Source: Actinomycetota bacterium (lineage in GTDB: Bacteria; Actinomycetota; Actinomycetes; Streptosporangiales; Streptosporangiaceae). Taken from it: DNA of 9,203 nucleotides. A model generated the notes under the pieces. The model was not told the origin of the DNA. It did no database searches and was given only the letters and a program-made list of their open reading frames with translations. The stretch is taken from contig PLIQ01000662.1 in NCBI GenBank assembly GCA_003140115.1, positions 1-9,203 of the forward strand, given 5' to 3'. How positions within the stretch are numbered: the first letter of the stretch is position 1; each line of letters begins with the position of its first letter. Shown in pieces: positions 1-9,203 of the stretch. The position numbers and the translations under genes are program-made.

Positions 1-864
1 GGCGGGGGTGGCGGCGGTGGCGGCGCCACCCAAGTCACCTACGGCGTCGGCGGTGGCGCGGGAACCAACGGATCCGCCGGGGCGGACGGCACCGTGGCCC
101 TCGGCGGGGGCGGCGGCAGCACGGGCGGCGTCGACGGCGGATACGCCGGCGGAGGTGGCGGCGGTGGCCTGTACGGCGGTGGGGGCGGCGGCTCGGCCGG
201 CGTCAACGGCGGAGCCGGCGGCGGAGGTGGCGGCGGCGCCAGCTACGGCCCGCGCGGTACCGCCTTCGATCCCAGCACGCTGGGCGGCAACGGCCGGGTG
301 ACCGTCACCTTCACCCCGCCGCTGCAGGTGACCACGAGCAGCCTGCCCGCCGCGACCGGCGGCGTGCCGTACTCCGCGACGCTGACCGCACACGGCGGGG
401 TCAAGCCCTACACCTGGTCGGTGACCTCCGGGTCGCTGCCGCCCGGCATGACGCTCGACTCCTTCACCGGGGTGATCTCCGGGACCTCGGATGTGACCGG
501 GACCTATCAGTTCATGGTGACGGTGAAGGACTCGGAGTACCCGAGGATGACGGCCAGCGCGGTGCTGTCGATCGCGGTGAGCGGGCCCGTGATCACCGCG
601 GTGCGGCCGGACAACGGCCCCGATTTCGGGGGCACGCCGGTGATGATCACCGGGACGGGCCTGTCCTGCCCGCCGAACGATGGCTCGTGCACGGTGCAGG
701 TGACGTTCGGCGGGCACTCGGCGGAGGTGGAGTGGGCGCACCCGGATCAGATCGCGGTGGTCTCGCCGCCCGGGACGGGGACAGTGACGATAACGGTGAC
801 CGTCGCCGGGGTGTCCAGCCAGGCCACCAACGCTGACCTGTTCGGCTACGGCAGCGGCCTTTAA
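1..864 (+). CDS. Glycine-rich protein with Ig-like and IPT/TIG domains, 3' part
   Basis: This frame is open from the left edge to a TAA stop, so it is the C-terminal 287 residues of a larger protein whose start lies outside the window. Residues 1 to about 82 are almost all Gly with scattered Ser, Ala, Asn and Tyr. They end in a block closing with GNGRVTVTF, which is how actinobacterial glycine-rich surface domains usually finish. Residues about 108-195 look like a putative-Ig (He_PIG) fold, with the signature GxPYSATLTAHGG..PYTWSV..GSLPPGM and GVISGT. Residues about 196-287 look like an IPT/TIG domain (ITAVRPDNGPDFGGTPVMITGTGL...VTFGG). Both folds are typical of secreted or cell-surface proteins. 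No LPXTG sorting motif or C-terminal membrane segment is visible, so it is probably secreted or held non-covalently at the surface. Function and substrate are unknown. It is transcribed towards the L,D-transpeptidase gene and shares a terminator with it. Domain calls are from pattern recognition only. Confidence 0.85.
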   Translation, partial: GGGGGGGGATQVTYGVGGGAGTNGSAGADGTVALGGGGGSTGGVDGGYAGGGGGGGLYGGGGGGSAGVNGGAGGGGGGGASYGPRGTAFDPSTLGGNGRVTVTFTPPLQVTTSSLPAATGGVPYSATLTAHGGVKPYTWSVTSGSLPPGMTLDSFTGVISGTSDVTGTYQFMVTVKDSEYPRMTASAVLSIAVSGPVITAVRPDNGPDFGGTPVMITGTGLSCPPNDGSCTVQVTFGGHSAEVEWAHPDQIAVVSPPGTGTVTITVTVAGVSSQATNADLFGYGSGL

Positions 865-939: not shown

Positions 940-2292
940 CTACGCGGCGGTCGCGTTGCCGGCCGGAGCGGTGCCCAGCGGCGCGGCCGCGGTCGAGGCT
1001 GGCAGCGTGGCCGGGTTGACGAACGTGCTGCCGCCCGGCCCGGCCTGCACGGCCTCGTGCAGCGCGCTGCCGGCCAGGTATTGCGACCAGCTCAGGAACC
1101 ACTCGGTCCAGCCGTTGTCCCAGGTGCCGCCATGCGGGCTGCCCACGATCGTGATCGGGTCACCGGGTACGGCCAGGTTGTAGTACGTCTGCGCGTCGGC
1201 GGGGGCGAGGTTGACGCAGCCGTGGCTTACGTTCTCGAAGCCCTGTTCACCCACCGACCAGTAGGCGTCGTGGTAGTAGTCCCCGCTGAAGGTGAACCGC
1301 ACCGACCAGGGCACCTCCAGGCTGTACCCGGGGCCGGTCATCAGCACCGGGTTCTCCTTCTCGATGGTCAGGTAGCTCCCGTCGGGGGTGTCGTCACCCG
1401 GCCGGCCGGAGCTGATCGGCCAGTCGTAACGGAGCTTGCCGTTGTAGTAGATCTGCGTGCGGTGCGTCTGGGTGTTCCCGACCGCGATCAGCGATGCGCC
1501 GATGTGGAAGGTCTGGGTCAGGGTGTGGGAGCCGTACACGCCCGGCGCGCCCTGCACGCCGTTGAGGTGCCCCGTGAAGCTGACCGTGGTGCCGGCCGGC
1601 CAGTAGTTACGGGGCCGGAAGTAGGCGCAGGTGGCTGCCATGTTGCAGGGATCGTCCCAGTACCACGCGCCGACCACCGGCGTCGACGTGGCGACCTGCA
1701 GCGATCGCTCCACGGCCGCCTTGTCCGTGATCGGCTGGCTGAAGTACAAGATGATCGGCATCCCCACGCCGTAGGCCTGCCCGGAGCCCTCCAGGATCTC
1801 GGTGCTGAACGTCTGGCCCGGGGTCAGCGTGCGGAACGCGCTGGTCGCGGTGACCGTGCCGCCGTGCCCGGACGCCGTGGCCGTCACCGTATAGGACTGC
1901 GAGACGTCCAGCGCCCACTGGCTGCGCCAGACCGCGCCACCTTGGCTCAGGCTGCCGGCCACCTGGTCGCCGGAGGTACGCACGGCCACGTGGGTCAGCG
2001 TGCCGCCCGCGGCCGTGACCGTGATGCCCGCGGACGGGTCGGCCTGCGCCGCGCCGTTCGCCGGGGTGATCGTTACCCGCGGCATCGCCGCGGCCCTGGT
2101 GGTGGCTCCAGTGCTGGCTTCGGGCCCGGCATGAGCCGCGGCGCTGGCCTGGCTGGTACCGTGCCCGCCGCCCGTGCAGCCCGCGGCCAGCAGGGCCAGT
2201 GCCGCCACGGCGGCGATCCCCGCTGACCGCCTCAGCCACCTGCCCGCCGCGCCACTCCCGCGCCGCGTGGTCATGGTCCGAACGGCCCTCAC
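940..2292 (-). CDS. L,D-transpeptidase (YkuD family) lipoprotein with Ig-like domains
   Basis: The 450-aa product is a predicted extracytoplasmic L,D-transpeptidase that makes 3-3 peptidoglycan cross-links. An N-terminal signal with basic residues (RRSAG) and a hydrophobic stretch ends in LLAAGC at Cys39, a lipobox, so it should be a membrane-anchored lipoprotein. A Ser/Ala/Thr-rich linker follows. Two beta-rich Ig-like segments (about 70-150 and 155-250) precede the YkuD domain (about 255-380). The catalytic motif is SHGCVNL, with nucleophile Cys359, His357 and an upstream His341. A Trp-rich tail (WDNGWTEWFLSWSQYL) matches the C-terminal subdomain of mycobacterial LdtMt2-type enzymes, and a disordered Ala/Thr/Pro tail ends the protein. 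The GTG at 2292 (GGGGAA upstream) and the ATG at 2274 (GAGGG upstream) are both credible starts; the latter gives 444 aa. It lies 55 nt downstream of hypA on the same strand. Whether it is cotranscribed with the hydrogenase genes cannot be seen. A functional link to hydrogenase is not established. Confidence 0.93.
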   Translation of the reverse strand: MRAVRTMTTRRGSGAAGRWLRRSAGIAAVAALALLAAGCTGGGHGTSQASAAAHAGPEASTGATTRAAAMPRVTITPANGAAQADPSAGITVTAAGGTLTHVAVRTSGDQVAGSLSQGGAVWRSQWALDVSQSYTVTATASGHGGTVTATSAFRTLTPGQTFSTEILEGSGQAYGVGMPIILYFSQPITDKAAVERSLQVATSTPVVGAWYWDDPCNMAATCAYFRPRNYWPAGTTVSFTGHLNGVQGAPGVYGSHTLTQTFHIGASLIAVGNTQTHRTQIYYNGKLRYDWPISSGRPGDDTPDGSYLTIEKENPVLMTGPGYSLEVPWSVRFTFSGDYYHDAYWSVGEQGFENVSHGCVNLAPADAQTYYNLAVPGDPITIVGSPHGGTWDNGWTEWFLSWSQYLAGSALHEAVQAGPGGSTFVNPATLPASTAAAPLGTAPAGNATAA

Positions 2293-2347: not shown

Positions 2348-2701
2348 TCACACGGGGCGCGGAGCTGGCGCCGCGTACGTGATCGATTCCAGGACCATCT
2401 CGTCGCCGCCGCTGATCTTGGCGTTGTTACTCGCGCAGCGCGGACAGGTGGCCAGCAGGTCCGTGGTCTCGCCGCTGTACTCGCAGTCCGGGCAGTCGAT
2501 GGTGGCCGGCACCGTCACGAGCTTGACGGCGGCGCCGGCCGCCTCGGTTCCCTCAGCCAGCATGCTGAACGCCTGGACCAGGGACTCCTCGTCGACGGCG
2601 TGCCGGACTCCGAACCGGACCCGGACTCCCGTTACCTGCCGACCGCCGGCGCGCTGCCGCACCGCGTCCACCACGCCCTCGCACAAGCCGAATTCGTGCA
2701 T
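2348..2701 (-). CDS. hypA: HypA, hydrogenase nickel-insertion metallochaperone
   Basis: The 117-aa product has the usual HypA length and layout. It begins with MHE, where the N-terminal amine and His2 bind Ni(II). A second half carries the structural zinc site as two CxxC pairs (Cys70/Cys73 and Cys86/Cys89), spaced as in the family. With HypB (not in this window) it delivers Ni to the immature large subunit in the cytoplasm. The start is ATG with GGGAG four bases upstream. It is the last recognisable hydrogenase gene of the operon, 30 nt after the YtxH-like gene. An oddity is the short Ala/Pro tail after the conserved GDEMVLESI segment. Identity is secure, although the substrate hydrogenase is inferred from context. 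Confidence 0.95.
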   Translation of the reverse strand: MHEFGLCEGVVDAVRQRAGGRQVTGVRVRFGVRHAVDEESLVQAFSMLAEGTEAAGAAVKLVTVPATIDCPDCEYSGETTDLLATCPRCASNNAKISGGDEMVLESITYAAPAPRPV

Positions 2702-2731: not shown

Positions 2732-3010
2732 TCACGCCGCGCGGCGGGACCGCCGCTCGATGAGCTCGTCCACCACGCTGCCGAAGAGCGCGGCCCGGCT
2801 GCCGCCGTTGGACTTGCCGCCCACGCGCTCCAGGACCGGGCCGGCCGCGGTCTCGAACATGGATATCGCCTCGCTCAGCATCCGCCGGGTTTCCGGGGAG
2901 GCCGCGATCGCCTGAGCCGAGTCGATCGCCTCCTGCAGGCCCTTGCGCCCCTGCCGGGTGCCGATGTAATAGCCGACCGCGAAACCGAGTACAACTTCCA
3001 CGCCCCTCAC
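2732..3010 (-). CDS. YtxH-like small membrane-associated protein
   Basis: The product is 92 aa from a GTG start. Its N-terminus has a short hydrophobic stretch (about residues 4-17) running into GYYIGTRQGRKGLQ. That glycine-patterned membrane segment followed by a basic patch resembles small YtxH-type actinobacterial proteins. The rest is predicted helical (residues 22-60 SAQAIAASPETRRMLSEAIS and on, then FETAAGPVLERVGG), with a basic end (ERRSRRAA). AGGAAGG lies just upstream of the GTG at 3010. A second in-frame GTG at 3001 (residue 4) is an alternative start. It sits 21 nt after the 34-aa membrane peptide and 30 nt before hypA, so it is probably cotranscribed with the hydrogenase. A role in tethering or assembling the hydrogenase at the membrane is inference from position only. 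No catalytic motif is visible. Confidence 0.8.
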   Translation of the reverse strand: MRGVEVVLGFAVGYYIGTRQGRKGLQEAIDSAQAIAASPETRRMLSEAISMFETAAGPVLERVGGKSNGGSRAALFGSVVDELIERRSRRAA

Positions 3011-3031: not shown

Positions 3032-3136
3032 TTACATCTCACGAATTTCGAGGTACCGCTTGATGTCAGGCAGCGAATCCACCACCAGTGCCAGCACCGC
3101 CGCGATGACGATCGCCTTGATCAGCCTGCTCAGCAT
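3032..3136 (-). CDS. 34-aa single-pass membrane peptide (DUF6893-like)
   Basis: This short gene starts at ATG 3136 and stops at TAA 3032. The product begins MLSRLIKAIVIAAVLALVV, one transmembrane helix, followed by a short polar tail with DIKRYLEIREM. The helix plus a D..RY..IR.M ending matches my recollection of the DUF6893 small-protein family of actinobacteria; a profile search was not possible. A near-ideal AAGGAGG eight bases upstream of the ATG strongly supports translation. The gene starts inside the 3' end of the maturation protease gene and overlaps it by 71 nt in another frame. It is 21 nt before the YtxH-like gene. The function is unknown. A small membrane anchor or stabiliser for the hydrogenase is a plausible guess. 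Confidence 0.8.
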   Translation of the reverse strand: MLSRLIKAIVIAAVLALVVDSLPDIKRYLEIREM

Positions 3137-3731
3137 CCTGAGCACCTCCTTCCTCAGTCGGTTTATCCGGATGGGTTAAATCAGCCATGCACCCCTGCTC
3201 GTCCGCTGCTTCCTGCACGTCTGGTTCTTGCACGCCTGGTCCCTGCGCGTCTGGTTCCGGGCCGGCCGCCAGCGCCTGGGCCAGGATCTCCTCCACGGCC
3301 CGGACCGCGTGCGGCAGGGCCTCCAGGACCGGATCGGACAGGCCCATGCCCGCGTCGACCTCGGCGGGCTCGCAAGCCACCACCAGGCTCCGCCCCGGGC
3401 GGCCGCCCAGTGAGGACAGCAGCCCGAAGATCGCGTCCGGGGTCAGGCTGTGCGCGTCGATGAGCGGCTGGGCGTCCGGGCTGGGCAGTTCCACCTCGAG
3501 CACGCTCACCGTGCCCGGTGCCTCACCCCGCGGCGCCGCGTCCACCAGCACGAACAGGTCGTACCCGTCGAGCAGCTCGTAGACCAGGTGGACGCCGCGG
3601 ATACCGTAGTCGCGGATCAGCACTCCAGGCGGCTGCGGGCGCTCGGCGAGCAGCCGGATGACCTCGACGCCGAAGGCGTCGTCGCGCAGGAACACGTTGC
3701 CCACGCCCGCCACCAGGATCCGTCCGGTCAT
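3066..3731 (-). CDS. Hydrogenase maturation endopeptidase (HyaD/HycI family, peptidase M52)
   Basis: The 221-aa protein is predicted to cleave the C-terminal tail of HhyL once Ni is in place. The core (residues 1 to about 150) has the family pattern GVGNVFLRDDAFGVEV near the N-terminus, then VLVDA and DAHSLTP. Asp18, Asp64 and His94 align with the three Ni-sensing ligands of E. coli HybD (Glu16, Asp62, His93). ATG 3731 overlaps the upstream stop as ATGA and has GGAGGG six bases before it, so longer in-frame extensions are rejected. After about residue 155 comes a low-complexity acidic tail unlike typical family members (usually 150-180 aa). It contains a five-residue repeat (EPDAQ/GPGVQ/EPDVQ). 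It also carries a TTA leucine codon at 3177-3179 (residue 185) and runs 71 nt into the next gene in another frame. The core assignment is secure; the role of the tail is unknown. Confidence 0.93.
   Translation of the reverse strand: MTGRILVAGVGNVFLRDDAFGVEVIRLLAERPQPPGVLIRDYGIRGVHLVYELLDGYDLFVLVDAAPRGEAPGTVSVLEVELPSPDAQPLIDAHSLTPDAIFGLLSSLGGRPGRSLVVACEPAEVDAGMGLSDPVLEALPHAVRAVEEILAQALAAGPEPDAQGPGVQEPDVQEAADEQGCMADLTHPDKPTEEGGAQDAEQADQGDRHRGGAGTGGGFAA
3145..3151 (-). promoter_or_regulatory. Strong ribosome binding site for the 34-aa peptide
   Basis: AAGGAGG on the - strand, eight bases before the ATG at 3136, is the best Shine-Dalgarno match in the operon. It lies within the coding sequence of the upstream protease and is the main reason to accept the tiny downstream gene as real. 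Confidence 0.8.
3214..3258 (-). repeat. Three 15-bp tandem repeats in the protease tail
   Basis: Three contiguous 15-bp units (3214-3228, 3229-3243, 3244-3258) read on the + strand as TGCACGTCTGGTTCT and two variants differing at a few positions. They encode EPDAQ, GPGVQ and EPDVQ in the disordered C-terminal tail of the maturation protease. The period is a multiple of three, so copy-number changes would keep frame. Confidence 0.85.
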
Positions 3732-5098
3732 GGGGCACCCTCCGCCTGGCACGGCTCCACCTCGTCGGGCATGAAGTACAGGAACCGCCCGTGCGCGATG
3801 CTCAGGTCCGGGTCGGGGTGATCGGTCAGCGACACGGCCAGGTACGGCTGGTCCTCGATGTCGAGCAGCACGGCCTGGACCTCGGCGATCCGCCCGACCA
3901 GGAACATGTCCTGCGCGTCGGCGCGGCGCGCGCCCGGCCGCAGCCGGACCAGGCTGCCGCGGGCCACCTGCTGGCCGCCGATCAGCACCGAGTCGGTATC
4001 CGGGGACACCGACGCGTCGGCCTCCGGATCCCACCAGGGCACCGCCGGATCGTAGTCGGCCAGCCCCCCGCCGCCCGCGCCGGAGGCGCCAGAGCGCTCC
4101 GCGCCGGAGGCGCCAGGGTGCAGAGCGCCGGAGGCGCCAGAGCGCAGGCCGCGGATGGTGCCGTGCAGCCGTTCCATGGTCGGCGCGTCCATCGACTCGA
4201 CCCGGTCGATCAGCGCGGCGGCCCGGGGGTCGGTGGCCCGGGCCTCGAGCTTTTCCTCGTCCGACAGCGCGAGCGTGCGCAGGGTGAGGATCTCGTCGAT
4301 CTCGGTGCCGTCGTACAGCTCACCCGGGCTCTCCGGGGCCAGTTCCGGGTGGTCGTACAGGATGATCGGCGAGGCCAGCATGACCTGGCGTCCGCCGTCG
4401 GGGTCGGCCAGGACCGGCCAGCAGCCGTGGTTCTGGCACTGCGCCACGGCCGGCTTGGCCCACTCGGGCGGATCGGTCATCGAGATGAACTCGCCGCCGG
4501 TGACGGTCACGATCACGTGCGCGGCGACCAGCGCGGTCGGCAGCGCGTCGTCCCTGACCGCGGGCGCGGGCTCGGCCGCGGACCGGTTCTCCACCCGGAC
4601 CTGGAGCCGGACCGCCCGCCACGGGCCCGGCACCGGGCTGGTGCGCACGCAAACCTGGCCGGCCAGGGGCTCCCGGCGCCGGACCGCGATCCCCGCGTCT
4701 GGTGAGGGTTCCCGGTCTTCCCCGCCGGGGACCGAGAACTCCCTGGCCAGGTCCGAGCCGAGCAGCTCGCCGGGGCCGAAGGTGAACTCGATCTCTCGTT
4801 CCACCGCCTCGTCCCAGGAGCCCGCCGCGCCCTCGGTGCTGCGCCGCTGCACCTGCAGGAACCGCAGGATGACCTGGACGGCGGGCTGCCCGGAGTGCTC
4901 GAGTACCCACTCGGACTGGGTGACGCTGCTCTCCGAGGGGTCGACCGCGGCGTACTCGGGCGCCATCACCACGCCGAACTGCCAGCGGCTGCGGTTCTTC
5001 TGGGACGAGGCCCGGTATGGGTACAGGATGTAGCCCTCGTAGAGGACGGCGTCGGCGATGCGGCGCACCGCGTCGAGGTTCGCGCCCGCGTCGCTCAT
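3728..5098 (-). CDS. Hydrogenase-operon protein of unknown function, 456 aa
   Basis: I do not recognise a characterised family, though similar genes travel with actinobacterial group 1h hydrogenases as far as I recall. The N-terminal region (residues 1-250) is mixed alpha/beta, with LYEGYILYPYRASSQKNRSRWQFGVV near the start and a CQNHGC motif (Cys221, His225, Cys227) that could bind a metal. Residues 255-315 form a charged helical segment (GTEIDEILTLRTLALSDEEKL and onwards). A Gly/Ser/Ala linker at about 319-345 is built of an 8-residue repeat. A compact C-terminal domain (about 353-450) starts with PWWDP and contains RGSLVRLRPG, DMFLVGRIAEV and GRFLYFMPDEVEPC, which suggests a small beta-barrel. 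There is no signal peptide or membrane helix, so it is cytoplasmic. ATG 5098 overlaps the DUF6084 stop as ATGA with GAGG upstream; the same frame stays open further but lacks justification. Its stop overlaps the protease start by 4 nt. Position between structural and maturation genes suggests a role in assembly, as inference. Confidence 0.85.
   Translation of the reverse strand: MSDAGANLDAVRRIADAVLYEGYILYPYRASSQKNRSRWQFGVVMAPEYAAVDPSESSVTQSEWVLEHSGQPAVQVILRFLQVQRRSTEGAAGSWDEAVEREIEFTFGPGELLGSDLAREFSVPGGEDREPSPDAGIAVRRREPLAGQVCVRTSPVPGPWRAVRLQVRVENRSAAEPAPAVRDDALPTALVAAHVIVTVTGGEFISMTDPPEWAKPAVAQCQNHGCWPVLADPDGGRQVMLASPIILYDHPELAPESPGELYDGTEIDEILTLRTLALSDEEKLEARATDPRAAALIDRVESMDAPTMERLHGTIRGLRSGASGALHPGASGAERSGASGAGGGGLADYDPAVPWWDPEADASVSPDTDSVLIGGQQVARGSLVRLRPGARRADAQDMFLVGRIAEVQAVLLDIEDQPYLAVSLTDHPDPDLSIAHGRFLYFMPDEVEPCQAEGAP
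4076..4144 (-). repeat. 24-bp tandem repeat encoding a GASGA linker
   Basis: A 16-bp core, GCGCCGGAGGCGCCAG, recurs at 4077, 4101 and 4125, exactly 24 bp apart. The first and third copies are identical over 20 bp. In the 456-aa protein this gives three 8-residue units of the form [S/P]GASGAxx, a flexible linker between the helical segment and the C-terminal domain. Each core contains the palindrome GGCGCC. The period keeps reading frame. Confidence 0.9.
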
Positions 5099-5814
5099 GG
5101 CTGCCTCGTCTCCGCCGGGTCCTCCGGGTCCGCGCCCGCCAAAGCCTGGGCCCCCGATCCGGTCGGCAGAACGCCCGATTCGGCCTGGCGGGCCTCGGCC
5201 AGCAGGGCCGTCAGGGTGGAGTCCCAGGTAGGCAGGGCGCGCTTGGCCTTGAACGCGGACAGCTCGTCCAGCGTCTCGCGGCTGCAGCGCAGCCACGCGC
5301 TGTTGGGGAAGTGGACGTCCACCAGCTCCCGCCAGATGCTCACCGGCATCCGGTAGGAGGCCTCGGCGCTCCACGGGACGAGCTCGACCGAGAAACTGTC
5401 GCCGTTGGCCACGAAGACGGTCCCGCTGAACAACAGGAGCAGCGGGACCGTGCCGTCGTCCAGCCCGTGCAGGTAACGGGCCGAGGTCACCTCCAGGTCG
5501 TAGGTGACCGGCACCTCCACGTTGGTCTCGGTCACCGCGGTGAACGAGGGGACCATCGTGGTCACCGTGGCGAGCTGGATTGGCTTGACGGTTTCGGCCC
5601 ACCGCGACGGGTCGCCGAACAAGTCGTGCAGCCGCTGCGCCTCGGCCGCGGAGTACCGCCGGCGGTGCGGTTCGATGCGGATCTGGCAGCGCAGCGCGAT
5701 GGCGTGCACCCGCACGCCGGAACGTTCGGTGATGGTCAGCGCGAACGTGAGCGTGGGCGTCGCCGCGTACCGCTCCGCGGTCGCGCCCGTGCAGCCGAAG
5801 ATGAGGTCCGCCAT
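5095..5814 (-). CDS. DUF6084-type hydrogenase-operon protein
   Basis: The 239-aa product matches what I remember as DUF6084, a family of unknown function found next to actinobacterial [NiFe]-hydrogenases; no search could be run. It opens MADLIFGCTGATAERYAATPT, then FALTITERSGVRVHAIALRCQIRIEPHRR with alternating hydrophobic residues, suggesting a beta-sandwich. A loop YSAAEAQRLHDLFGDPSRWAET follows, then further strands (VEVPVTYDLEVTSARYLHGL, and VPLLLLFSGTVFV with VELVPW). The C-terminal part has SIWRELVDVHFPNSAWLRCSRETLDELSAFK and an acidic, Pro-rich tail. No signal peptide, membrane helix or clustered metal-binding cysteines are seen, so it is probably cytoplasmic. ATG 5814 follows the DUF5947 stop by one base, with GAGAGGG upstream. 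The stop overlaps the next start as ATGA, so translation is coupled on both sides. A structural or chaperone role in hydrogenase assembly is a guess from context. Confidence 0.87.
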   Translation of the reverse strand: MADLIFGCTGATAERYAATPTLTFALTITERSGVRVHAIALRCQIRIEPHRRRYSAAEAQRLHDLFGDPSRWAETVKPIQLATVTTMVPSFTAVTETNVEVPVTYDLEVTSARYLHGLDDGTVPLLLLFSGTVFVANGDSFSVELVPWSAEASYRMPVSIWRELVDVHFPNSAWLRCSRETLDELSAFKAKRALPTWDSTLTALLAEARQAESGVLPTGSGAQALAGADPEDPAETRQP

Positions 5815-5815
5815 C

Positions 5816-6556
5816 TCAGTGCCCTCTCCCCAGTGGCACCGCGCGCCGCCGCAAGCTGTCCAGGAAGGTGGCCAGGGCCGCGCGGGCCTCGGCGCCGCCG
5901 TCGAACCCCTGCCATTTCATCCGCAGCTCACCGACCAGCGAGTAGCACTCGTCGATCGGGATCAGGAAGACCTCATATCCCGGGGGGGCAGCACTGCCCG
6001 GTTCCGCGCGGTTGACGAAGATGGCCTCCACGTCCGGGGCTAGCGTCCCGAGCAGCGGGTAGGCGGCGGCCAGCCGGTCCCAGGCCGCCAGGTCCAGCTC
6101 GCACTCGGTCACGCCGGCCGGGCTCGGGTAGCCGGCCACCACACGTCCTAGGGACGAGTTGCAGAAGAAGAACGCCATAGCCACCGGGATCTGCAACTCG
6201 TTCCAGTCCGCCTCGGTGAGCGGCCGGCCCGGGTCGTAGCAGACGTGCTCCGGCACGGCCCGGTACTGGCCGCCTGCCGCCCCCTCGTGGGTGAAGAGCA
6301 GATAGCACGCGCGGCAGGTACAGGCCAGCGATCGTTTCTCCAGGTCCACGACGTGCCCGTGCCGCTCGCCGAGCGCCTCGCGGCACATCTCGCACCGCTC
6401 GATGCCCGCCGCCGCGTCGCGGTCGGAGCGGGCCGCGGCCCGCGCGGCCAGGATCTCCTGGATCGACGGCGGGAGGCCCGGCGGCGGGCCCGGGGGCGCG
6501 CCCGCCGGCTGCTTGACGAAGCGCCGCAGCCCGACGGGACCGGCTTCGGCCGTCAC
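5816..6556 (-). CDS. DUF5947-type cysteine-rich hydrogenase-operon protein
   Basis: The 246-aa product resembles DUF5947, another unknown family I associate with hydrogenase loci. A Pro/Gly-rich leader (residues 15-30) precedes a helix. A cysteine cluster then follows: CEMC at 55-58 and CTCRAC at 79-84, with His66 and His68 between and Cys106 after it. This spacing looks like a zinc ribbon or possibly an Fe-S/heme-type metal site. A second half of alpha/beta character contains IPVAMAFFFCNSSLGRVVAGYPSPAGVTE and LAPDVEAIFVNR, then YEVFLIPIDECYSLVGELR and WQGFDGG near the C-terminus. There is no signal peptide or membrane helix. The start is GTG 6556, which overlaps the NifU-like stop as GTGA, with a G-run upstream. 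The stop is one base before the next gene. Likely partners are the NifU-like protein and the hydrogenase subunits, by coupling. The biochemical role is unknown. Confidence 0.87.
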   Translation of the reverse strand: MTAEAGPVGLRRFVKQPAGAPPGPPPGLPPSIQEILAARAAARSDRDAAAGIERCEMCREALGERHGHVVDLEKRSLACTCRACYLLFTHEGAAGGQYRAVPEHVCYDPGRPLTEADWNELQIPVAMAFFFCNSSLGRVVAGYPSPAGVTECELDLAAWDRLAAAYPLLGTLAPDVEAIFVNRAEPGSAAPPGYEVFLIPIDECYSLVGELRMKWQGFDGGAEARAALATFLDSLRRRAVPLGRGH

Positions 6557-7150: not shown

Positions 7151-8959
7151 CTACATGGCCAGGGTCACACCCGTGGGCGAATGCGCCGTGTTGAGCACCT
7201 TGCCGCCGCCGAGGTACATGTGCACGCCGCAGGGCAGGCACGGATCGAAGCTGCGCACGGCGCGCATGATGTCGATGCCCTTGAACTTATCCGGCGGGTT
7301 CTCCTCGAAGATCGGCGTGTTCTGCACCGCGTCCTCGTACGGCCCGGGCGTCCCGTAGGTGTCGCGGACGCTGCCGTTCCACGGCGTGGGCGGGTACGGG
7401 TGGTAGTTCGCGATCTTCCCGTCCCTGATCACCATGTGGTGCGACAGCACGCCGCGCACCGCCTCGGTGAAGCCGACGCTGAACGCGTCCTGGGGCACGG
7501 TGAACGATTCCCAGGTCTTGGTCCGTCCGGCCCGGATCTCGGCCAGCGCCTGCTCGACGAAGTACACCGCGCACGCGGCCGCGTAGGCCTGGAAGTAGGT
7601 CCGGGCCCGGTCCCGCTCGATCGCGTTGGACAGCGGCTGGCCCTGCTTGTCCACCGGGATCTTCCACTCGAAGCTGGTTTCCGGCCGGGACATGGTCCGG
7701 GGCAGGTTGATCTTCACGCTGTGCCCGGTGGACTGCACGTAACCGAAGTCGACCAGGCCGCCCAGCGCGGTGGCCCACAGCCGGGCGATCGGACCGCCGC
7801 CGGTGTCCAGCGGCAGGTAGTCCTTTCCGTCGAACCAGCGCGGCGACATGGTCCAGCTGTACTTGTCGTCGAAGTCGCGCTTGGCGGGCCGCGGGATCGT
7901 GTGCTGGTTCCACGGGTGGCGCCGGTCGACCGGGTTGCCGAGCTCGTCGTGGGTGACGAACATCTCCTTGTCTTCCCAGTCCTCGTAATACGAGTGACCG
8001 AGCAGGATCCTGATGCCCAGGTTGATGTCGACCAGGCTGTTGGTGACCAGTTGCCCGTCCACCACCACGCCGGGCGAGACGAACATCTTCCGGCCCCACG
8101 AGGCCATGTTCCGGTAGGTGAAGTCGCAGTACTCGGGGTCGTTGAGGCTGCCCCAGCAGCCGAGCAGCACCCGCCGCCGGCCGACTTCCTCGTATCCGGG
8201 CAGCGCCTCGTAGAAGAAGTCGAACAGGTCATCGTGCATCGGCACGACCCGCTTCATGAATTCCACGTAGCGCATCAGCCGGGTCAGGTAGTCGGTGAAC
8301 AGCTGCACCGTCGCGACCGTGCCGACGCCGCCCGGGTACAGCGTGGACGGGTGCACGTGGCGCCCTTCCATCAGGCAGAACATCTCGCGCGTCGACCGCG
8401 ACACCTGCAGTGCCTCACGGTAGAACTCGCCCTCCAGCGGGTTCAGCGAGCGCATGATGTCGCCGATGGTGCGGTACCCGTGCTCGCCCGCGTGCGGCGC
8501 CTGCGTGTGGTTGGCCATCTCCAGCACGCCGGGGTTGGTCTCGGCCACCATCTTCTCGCAGAAATCCACCCCGACCAGGTTCTCCTGGAAGATGTTGTGG
8601 TCGAACATGTACTCCGCGGCCTCGCCCAGGTTGATGATCCACTCGCCCAGGTGCGGCGGGCGGACCCCGTAGGCCATGTTCTGGTTGTAGACCGAGCAGG
8701 TCGCGTGGTTGTCACCGCAGATCCCGCAGATCCGGCTGGTGATGAAGTGCGCGTCCCGCGGGTCCTTGCCCTTCATGAAGATGCTGTAGCCGCGGAAGAT
8801 CGACGAGGTGCTGTGGCACTCCGCGACCCGCTTGGCCTTGAAGTCGATCTTGGTATAGATGCCCAGGCTGCCTACGATCCGGGTGATCGGATCCCAGGTC
8901 ATCTCGGTGAGTTCGGCCTCGTCGGCGCCGGTGGACGGCGGGTATTCAAGTGAGGTCAT
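7151..8959 (-). CDS. hhyL: [NiFe]-hydrogenase large subunit, group 1h (high-affinity H2 uptake)
   Basis: The 602-aa protein carries the NiFe(CN)2CO active site that splits H2. The L1 motif RICGICGDNH is at residues 76-85 (Cys78, Cys81, His85). The L2 motif DPCLPCGVH is at 572-580 (Cys574, Cys577). All four Ni/Fe-ligating cysteines are present. The sequence flanking L1 (TSRICGICGDNHATCSVY, then GVRPP..LGEWIINLGEAAEYMFDHNIFQENLVG) is characteristic of the group 1h/5 enzymes of actinobacteria such as Streptomyces HhyL and Mycobacterium HucL. After His580 comes a 22-residue tail starting MYLGGGKVL, which the M52 protease of this operon should remove. ATG 8959 is seven bases after the hhyS stop with only a weak GGTGAA upstream, so translational coupling is likely. 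Length is full for the family. The enzyme works with HhyS facing the respiratory quinone pool; the exact acceptor is not visible here. Confidence 0.97.
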   Translation of the reverse strand: MTSLEYPPSTGADEAELTEMTWDPITRIVGSLGIYTKIDFKAKRVAECHSTSSIFRGYSIFMKGKDPRDAHFITSRICGICGDNHATCSVYNQNMAYGVRPPHLGEWIINLGEAAEYMFDHNIFQENLVGVDFCEKMVAETNPGVLEMANHTQAPHAGEHGYRTIGDIMRSLNPLEGEFYREALQVSRSTREMFCLMEGRHVHPSTLYPGGVGTVATVQLFTDYLTRLMRYVEFMKRVVPMHDDLFDFFYEALPGYEEVGRRRVLLGCWGSLNDPEYCDFTYRNMASWGRKMFVSPGVVVDGQLVTNSLVDINLGIRILLGHSYYEDWEDKEMFVTHDELGNPVDRRHPWNQHTIPRPAKRDFDDKYSWTMSPRWFDGKDYLPLDTGGGPIARLWATALGGLVDFGYVQSTGHSVKINLPRTMSRPETSFEWKIPVDKQGQPLSNAIERDRARTYFQAYAAACAVYFVEQALAEIRAGRTKTWESFTVPQDAFSVGFTEAVRGVLSHHMVIRDGKIANYHPYPPTPWNGSVRDTYGTPGPYEDAVQNTPIFEENPPDKFKGIDIMRAVRSFDPCLPCGVHMYLGGGKVLNTAHSPTGVTLAM

Positions 8960-8966
8960 CGTATGT

Positions 8967-9203
<237 letters not shown>

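Follow-up and report, generated by a model that had tools for sequence, protein, structure and literature searches.

A conserved gene block largely tied to group 1h [NiFe]-hydrogenases and its possible role in their maturation

The window analysed here is a whole stretch of 9,203 nucleotides (nt) of contig PLIQ01000662.1, whose relatives are Streptosporangiaceae. Its minus strand carries a [NiFe]-hydrogenase cluster in which three adjacent genes, encoding a DUF5947 protein, a DUF6084 protein and a protein of 456 amino acids (aa), lie between a NifU-like gene and a maturation protease gene. This trio, its tie to group 1h hydrogenases and its possible contribution to their assembly are the subject of this work. 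The features of the cluster are as follows, with the equivalents in Cupriavidus necator H16 (PHG066-PHG069) where they apply:

8967..9203, minus strand: last 78 residues of the small subunit HhyS (from the translation; the rest lies beyond the window edge)
7151..8959, minus strand: HhyL, large subunit of a group 1h [NiFe]-hydrogenase by its sequence motifs, 602 aa
6553..7110, minus strand: NifU-like protein, a short HhyE form, 185 aa (PF01106, 1.2e-8; PHG066 equivalent)
5816..6556, minus strand: DUF5947 protein, 246 aa, GTG start (Pfam DUF5947, 2e-66; PHG067 equivalent)
5095..5814, minus strand: DUF6084 protein, 239 aa (PF19562, 2.7e-88; PHG068 equivalent)
3728..5098, minus strand: 456-aa protein, without a Pfam family (PHG069 equivalent)
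3066..3731, minus strand: HyaD/HycI-type hydrogenase maturation protease, 221 aa (PF01750, 7.2e-12; TIGR00072, 8.3e-33, residues 1-190)
2348..2701, minus strand: HypA, the nickel metallochaperone of this cluster (PF01155, 4.5e-25)

HhyL carries TSRICGICGDNH and SFDPCLPCGVH, the L1/L2 motifs published for large subunits of group 1h (PMC5364354), and by this sequence signature the hydrogenase of the window is a group 1h enzyme. The best solved relative of HhyL is chain 5aa5_C (HofG, 1065 bits), the sole solved match of the HhyS fragment is 5aa5_A (HofK, 1.3e-29), and the two genes are spaced by 7 nt. Over its full open reading frame (ORF) the protease matches hydrogenase-2 maturation proteases of solved structure, 5ttx (3.9e-13) among them. 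The stop of the NifU-like gene overlaps the start of the DUF5947 gene by 4 nt (GTGA), a gap of 1 nt separates the latter from the DUF6084 gene, and 4-nt overlaps (ATGA) join DUF6084 to the 456-aa gene and the 456-aa gene to the protease gene. These ORF coordinates and junctions, all on the minus strand, confirm the tight coupling of the three genes that a preliminary description of this DNA had claimed. An NCBIfam scan gave no family for any of the trio, and a Pfam scan gave none for the 456-aa protein.

Gene order was compared across 80 genome loci that were retrieved with the 456-aa family, which is thus present in all of them by construction. The full order hhyL-NifU-DUF5947-DUF6084-456-protease is found on one strand in 68 loci, and three further loci keep the order from hhyL to the 456-aa gene with the protease upstream on the other strand. 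The 456-aa and protease genes are divergent (opposite strand) in four loci, and contig ends interrupt five. Because 71 of the 80 loci keep hhyL-NifU-DUF5947-DUF6084-456 on a single strand, the arrangement is conserved and not a product of chance. A start codon allowing a 4-nt overlap is available for the 456-aa gene after DUF6084 in 74/76 cases and for the protease after the 456-aa gene in 71/76, which are upper bounds since the script picked the starts nearest to 4-nt spacing. Across the 72 complete loci, mean pairwise identity is 85% for HhyL, 54–59% for the trio and 46% for the NifU-like protein; the lower values of the trio are what one would expect of accessory proteins, less so of core subunits. 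Within the same loci the identities of the trio track those of HhyL (r 0.86–0.94, a statistic that ignores shared descent). The block is also kept on plasmids of C. necator, Streptomyces, Mycobacterium and Methylocystis. A group 1h variant was seen at three loci (L005, L126, L127), with HhyL 69–70% identical, the 456-aa gene upstream of hhyL, DUF5947 after the NifU-like gene and no DUF6084. At another (L125:4133-5824, genome G045), a single open frame joins NifU-like and DUF6084 readings by an RD/GD-rich linker, and there is no DUF5947; this may reflect a fusion, a fortuitous frame or an artefact of assembly.

The association with the hydrogenase was assessed in two samples. A plasmid search with HhyL returned 124 records, 12 above 60% identity and 112 below, the distant matches lying at ~26–27% (among the matches listed, 28 of the 112). 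The 456-aa and DUF5947 proteins are present in exactly the 12 close records (~9 lineages, since three strains are listed twice) and DUF6084 in 10, and none of the three was found in the other 112 (E ≤ 1e-5). The second sample comprised 296 genomes from the phylum to which Trebonia kvetii belongs, taken here to be Actinomycetota. Among the matches listed, HhyL at ≥60% identity occurs in 30 of them (24 by a long match, six in fragments only), and it accompanies DUF5947 in 25 of its 26 carriers, the 456-aa protein in 25 of 28 and DUF6084 in 24 of 27; Fisher values for this co-occurrence overstate its significance because the genomes are related. In the exceptions with trio genes and no close HhyL (G192, G219, G293), the genes lie at or near contig ends, which does not fully explain G293, where the 940 bases upstream hold no DUF5947 match. 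The HhyL carriers without all three genes (G110, G133, G187, G230) have HhyL only as fragments at ≥60% identity, and in G045, which has no DUF5947, the contig ends inside DUF6084, so that any 456-aa gene would lie beyond the sequence end. In a hand-made list of 12 genomes with distant HhyL only (37–44%), 11 are without the trio and G219 has DUF6084 and the 456-aa protein. The trio is thus found mostly at group 1h hydrogenase loci.

The co-occurrence search proposed with the preliminary description therefore bears out the association with close HhyL on plasmids and in genomes, and the group 1h specificity claimed there stands to this extent, less so for DUF6084, which is not exclusive. The fixed stoichiometry deduced from the coupling is doubtful, since DUF6084 is absent from one type of locus (L005, G131, G174), with the S. 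cattleyicolor plasmid among the cases, DUF5947 is absent from G045, and the 456-aa gene is divergent in the four loci noted above and split into two genes in 7/28 genomes. Two loci with sister hydrogenases (L128, L134; 42–43% to HhyL) have a NifU-domain gene nearby and no trio; L128 encodes a NifU-Rieske protein instead, and inspection by eye alone suggests, in both, a protease-like ORF and short hydrophobic ones close to the large-subunit gene.

The DUF6084 alignments show no invariant Cys or His. An orphan copy in Trebonia kvetii (L124:7702-8958), 65% identical to that of the window over 198 residues and extended by a long Pro/Glu/Ala-rich tail, is at least ~7.6 kb away from the nearest possible hhyL match, its 16-kb locus having none. 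Members of the family have also been described under the names AurHIII and KirHIII, from the aurodox and kirromycin clusters, which are remote from hydrogen metabolism (PMC9361827). Occurrence away from hydrogenases, which had been named in advance as counting against a dedicated system, is therefore seen in a minor way, for DUF6084.

DUF5947 contains the motif C55-x2-C58-x7-H66-x-H68-x10-C79-x-C81-x2-C84, whose five Cys and two His are invariant in all 61 aligned rows, and a looser form of the pattern occurs in 120/123 frames (some being repeat fetches of one gene). The motif is a candidate metal-binding site. The model (pLDDT 90) shows an alpha/beta domain beside the small Cys/His motif and had no convincing match among PDB structures, though this is no proof of a new fold. 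The neighbouring NifU-like protein of the window has Cys only at positions 39 and 133 and no CxxC. The Mycobacterium smegmatis type of HhyE, by comparison, has a NifU CxxC plus a C-terminal CxxC pair (PMC6883350); the window protein has neither, and HhyE forms without the C-terminal domain are on record in the same source. By a rough script rule, the domain CxxC is present in 28 of 81 loci and missing from 53, and the full HhyE layout is found in 13/81. Since the Cys/His site is kept in DUF5947 and the CxxC is mostly missing from its neighbour, DUF5947 is the block's candidate metal or redox centre. Two further ideas about this protein were rejected. DUF5947 is not the missing C-terminal half of HhyE, as the M. 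intracellulare plasmid has both, a 301-aa HhyE-type protein beside a separate DUF5947 gene. A link to DrmB came from one of 61 members (E 0.0094), which is about chance level for 61 scans, and a DrmB family search in nine genomes found nothing.

The 456-aa protein consists of two modules, and in some lineages (the 7/28 genomes with a split) the SH3-like one is encoded by a gene of its own. Its AF2 model places an N-domain at ~18-246, helices at 264-311, a Gly/Ala/Ser-rich linker at ~313-360 and a C-domain at 370-452, which as modelled is SH3-like. The N-domain appears to have a DrmA-like fold (Foldseek/VIA), resembling the non-motor jelly roll region of the DISARM helicase (comparison region DrmA 148-423, a jelly-roll-type domain), and differs from DrmA in that the protein has no helicase motor: no helicase family matched in Pfam, the model has no RecA-like domains by secondary structure, and features of an SF2 motor were not found. 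Relatives of the 456-aa protein match PADLOC DrmA models in sequence; the window's own protein has no PADLOC match, and real DrmA sequences gave no confirmation. Profiles of the 456-aa family missed seven helicases of DISARM-type loci (six named drmA, one DEAD/DEAH helicase), five more helicases, the long frames of L193 and two helicases of further genomes, and with these profiles real helicases scored no better than shuffled controls. Fourteen scanned helicases fit other PADLOC DrmA models, and where PDLC02573 is present its best stretch starts at position 324 or later; positions below 324 are covered by one match only, a 456-type gene (296 + 245 genomes, among the matches listed), other 456-type genomes being unmatched there with just two candidates scored per genome. 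The link to DrmA is therefore tentative; if confirmed, a DrmA-type domain in a hydrogenase operon would mean that phage defence and energy metabolism draw on one and the same structural module. On Thiodictyon plasmid pTs485, drmA has a SecB-annotated gene directly upstream (L184:2038-2505).

Taken together, we favour, at a probability of about one half, a reading in which the trio, the NifU-like gene and the protease form a maturation or assembly module dedicated to group 1h hydrogenases. The products would be made in the cytoplasm, next to subunits still under synthesis, and would not be retained in the finished small/large-subunit enzyme. The 5-Cys/2-His site of DUF5947 would hold one or two metal ions, and the protein might protect or reduce the Fe-S clusters of the small subunit while this is being made in air, by analogy with the rubredoxin HoxR, for which a role in group 1d maturation is reported (PMC6883350). 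The 456-aa protein would serve as scaffold, its N-domain and two conserved, poorly modelled loops at 21-42 and 257-267 gripping immature subunits and its SH3-like tail docking a partner; DUF6084 may assist in most lineages and be dispensable in some, and the coupled protease would close the process. This reading is favoured because the block sits between a NifU-like gene and a maturation protease, near hypA, and because 5aa5, the one close solved group 1h enzyme, matches the small and large subunits only; profiles of the three families had no significant match among solved chains (best E 0.11), and the trio has no transmembrane-like segment (highest 19-residue hydropathy 1.44–1.58). It is also favoured because loss of HhyE in M. 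smegmatis abolished activity staining even with an artificial acceptor, a result for which the authors allow assembly roles (PMC6883350). On pHG1, moreover, the group 1d operon holds HoxO (HyaE), HoxQ (HupH), HoxR (rubredoxin), HoxT (HybE) and HoxV, whereas the annotated group 1h stretch names none of these five and has instead the block and its own hyp genes.

Several points weigh against this. The trio has no sequence match to maturation factors, so that the case for its role is a positional one; homologues of the hypothetical operon genes are reportedly missing from Methylacidiphilum fumariolicum, which has a group 1h enzyme (PMC7174314), and so not every group 1h enzyme needs them; and the antibiotic-cluster members give DUF6084 at least one use outside hydrogenases. 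Absence from the crystal structure is compatible with a loosely bound partner, and the invariant metal site can equally suit electron transfer. The latter is the main competing explanation, in which DUF5947 would be the immediate acceptor for HhyS and the SH3-like tail of the 456-aa protein would dock the enzyme to a respiratory partner. We consider it rather unlikely, with the frequent lack of ligands in the NifU-like neighbour and the earlier proposal of PHG067 as an acceptor speaking for it, and the positional evidence above for maturation. Less probable still, the trio could build or anchor a higher-order HhySL complex without redox or maturation chemistry, as two of its proteins look like binding modules only and HucM offers a precedent in the group 2a enzyme Huc (PMC10017518); the lack of transmembrane-like segments, and of any long coiled coil in the models of DUF5947 and the 456-aa protein, argues against it, and the invariant metal site would be left unexplained. 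That the trio serves a general stress or regulatory task and sits near hhyL by operon inheritance, as DUF6084 without hydrogenase in T. kvetii and in the aurodox and kirromycin clusters might suggest, is highly improbable given that nearly all trio carriers among the 296 genomes also have close HhyL. Beyond the maturation module itself, we tentatively suggest, with slightly less conviction, that group 1h enzymes are built or wired by machinery unrelated in sequence to the factors compared, with DUF5947 and a 456-aa scaffold of DrmA-type and SH3-like modules at its core and DUF5947, rather than HhyE, as the universal metal or redox partner.

The soil sink of atmospheric H2 is attributed to high-affinity [NiFe]-hydrogenases, those of group 1h among them. 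Since both follow group 1h enzymes closely, the DUF5947 and 456-aa genes are good genetic handles, which bear on maturation in air and on the first destination of the electrons. The metal site of DUF5947, with seven ligands, offers a single testable target; earlier work looked at HhyE. Elsewhere in the window, a 92-aa protein at 2732-3010 (minus strand), between the protease and hypA, is a possible small partner, with eight frame matches among the loci (L009, L010, L024, L025, L042, L072, L121, L129; L121 and L129 come from a single contig, to which L025 apparently belongs as well). An L,D-transpeptidase with an Ig-like (Big_10) domain lies directly downstream of the cluster (940-2292, minus strand), and a very glycine-rich open frame occupies the window edge on the opposite strand (1-864, plus strand).

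The gene set itself is known. The preliminary description had taken it for an undescribed system; the same block was printed as four ORFs of unknown function, PHG066-069, in C. necator (PMC4377017), and an electron-acceptor role had been suggested for PHG067 (PMC6883350, with reference to Schafer 2013). The window has the PHG066-069 set in order between hhyL and the protease, and C. necator H16 the same order from large subunit to protease, with tblastn identities of 76% for HhyL, 43% for DUF5947, 41% for DUF6084 and 37% for the 456-aa protein; its NifU-like and 456-type proteins differ from those of the window in length and linker. In alphaproteobacterial methanotrophs four ORFs of unknown function adjoin hhyL, the nearest being NifU-like in 2/3 (PMC12319191, 2025). 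The labels hhaBFCDE have been given to accessory proteins, glossed in a table as nickel-incorporation and metallocentre-assembly proteins (PMC5364354), and hhaABC to genes of Thermomicrobium roseum (PMC6776052) that may be equivalents of the trio; in the literature searched, DUF5947 is not named and DUF6084 appears in a single paper, that on the aurodox and kirromycin clusters. With HhyE/HucE (groups 1h/2a) the likeness is a NifU-like domain encoded right after hhyL, and the difference the missing CxxC features, HhyE being a neighbour of the trio and not a member. With HyaE/HupH/HybE/HoxR/HoxV (group 1d) the likeness would lie in operon position and a small Cys-rich protein. The earlier claim that the trio matches no known maturation factor was borne out, as no Pfam match to the HyaE, HupH, rubredoxin, HybE or HypA families was found, and hhalign probabilities against C. 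necator HoxL/O/Q/R/T/V/Z and HypA were ≤2% in all 24 pairs (single-sequence targets, hence of low power). Relative to these known systems, what is new is a sharper test of specificity, the DUF5947 site, the two-module make-up of the 456-aa protein and its tentative link to DrmA.

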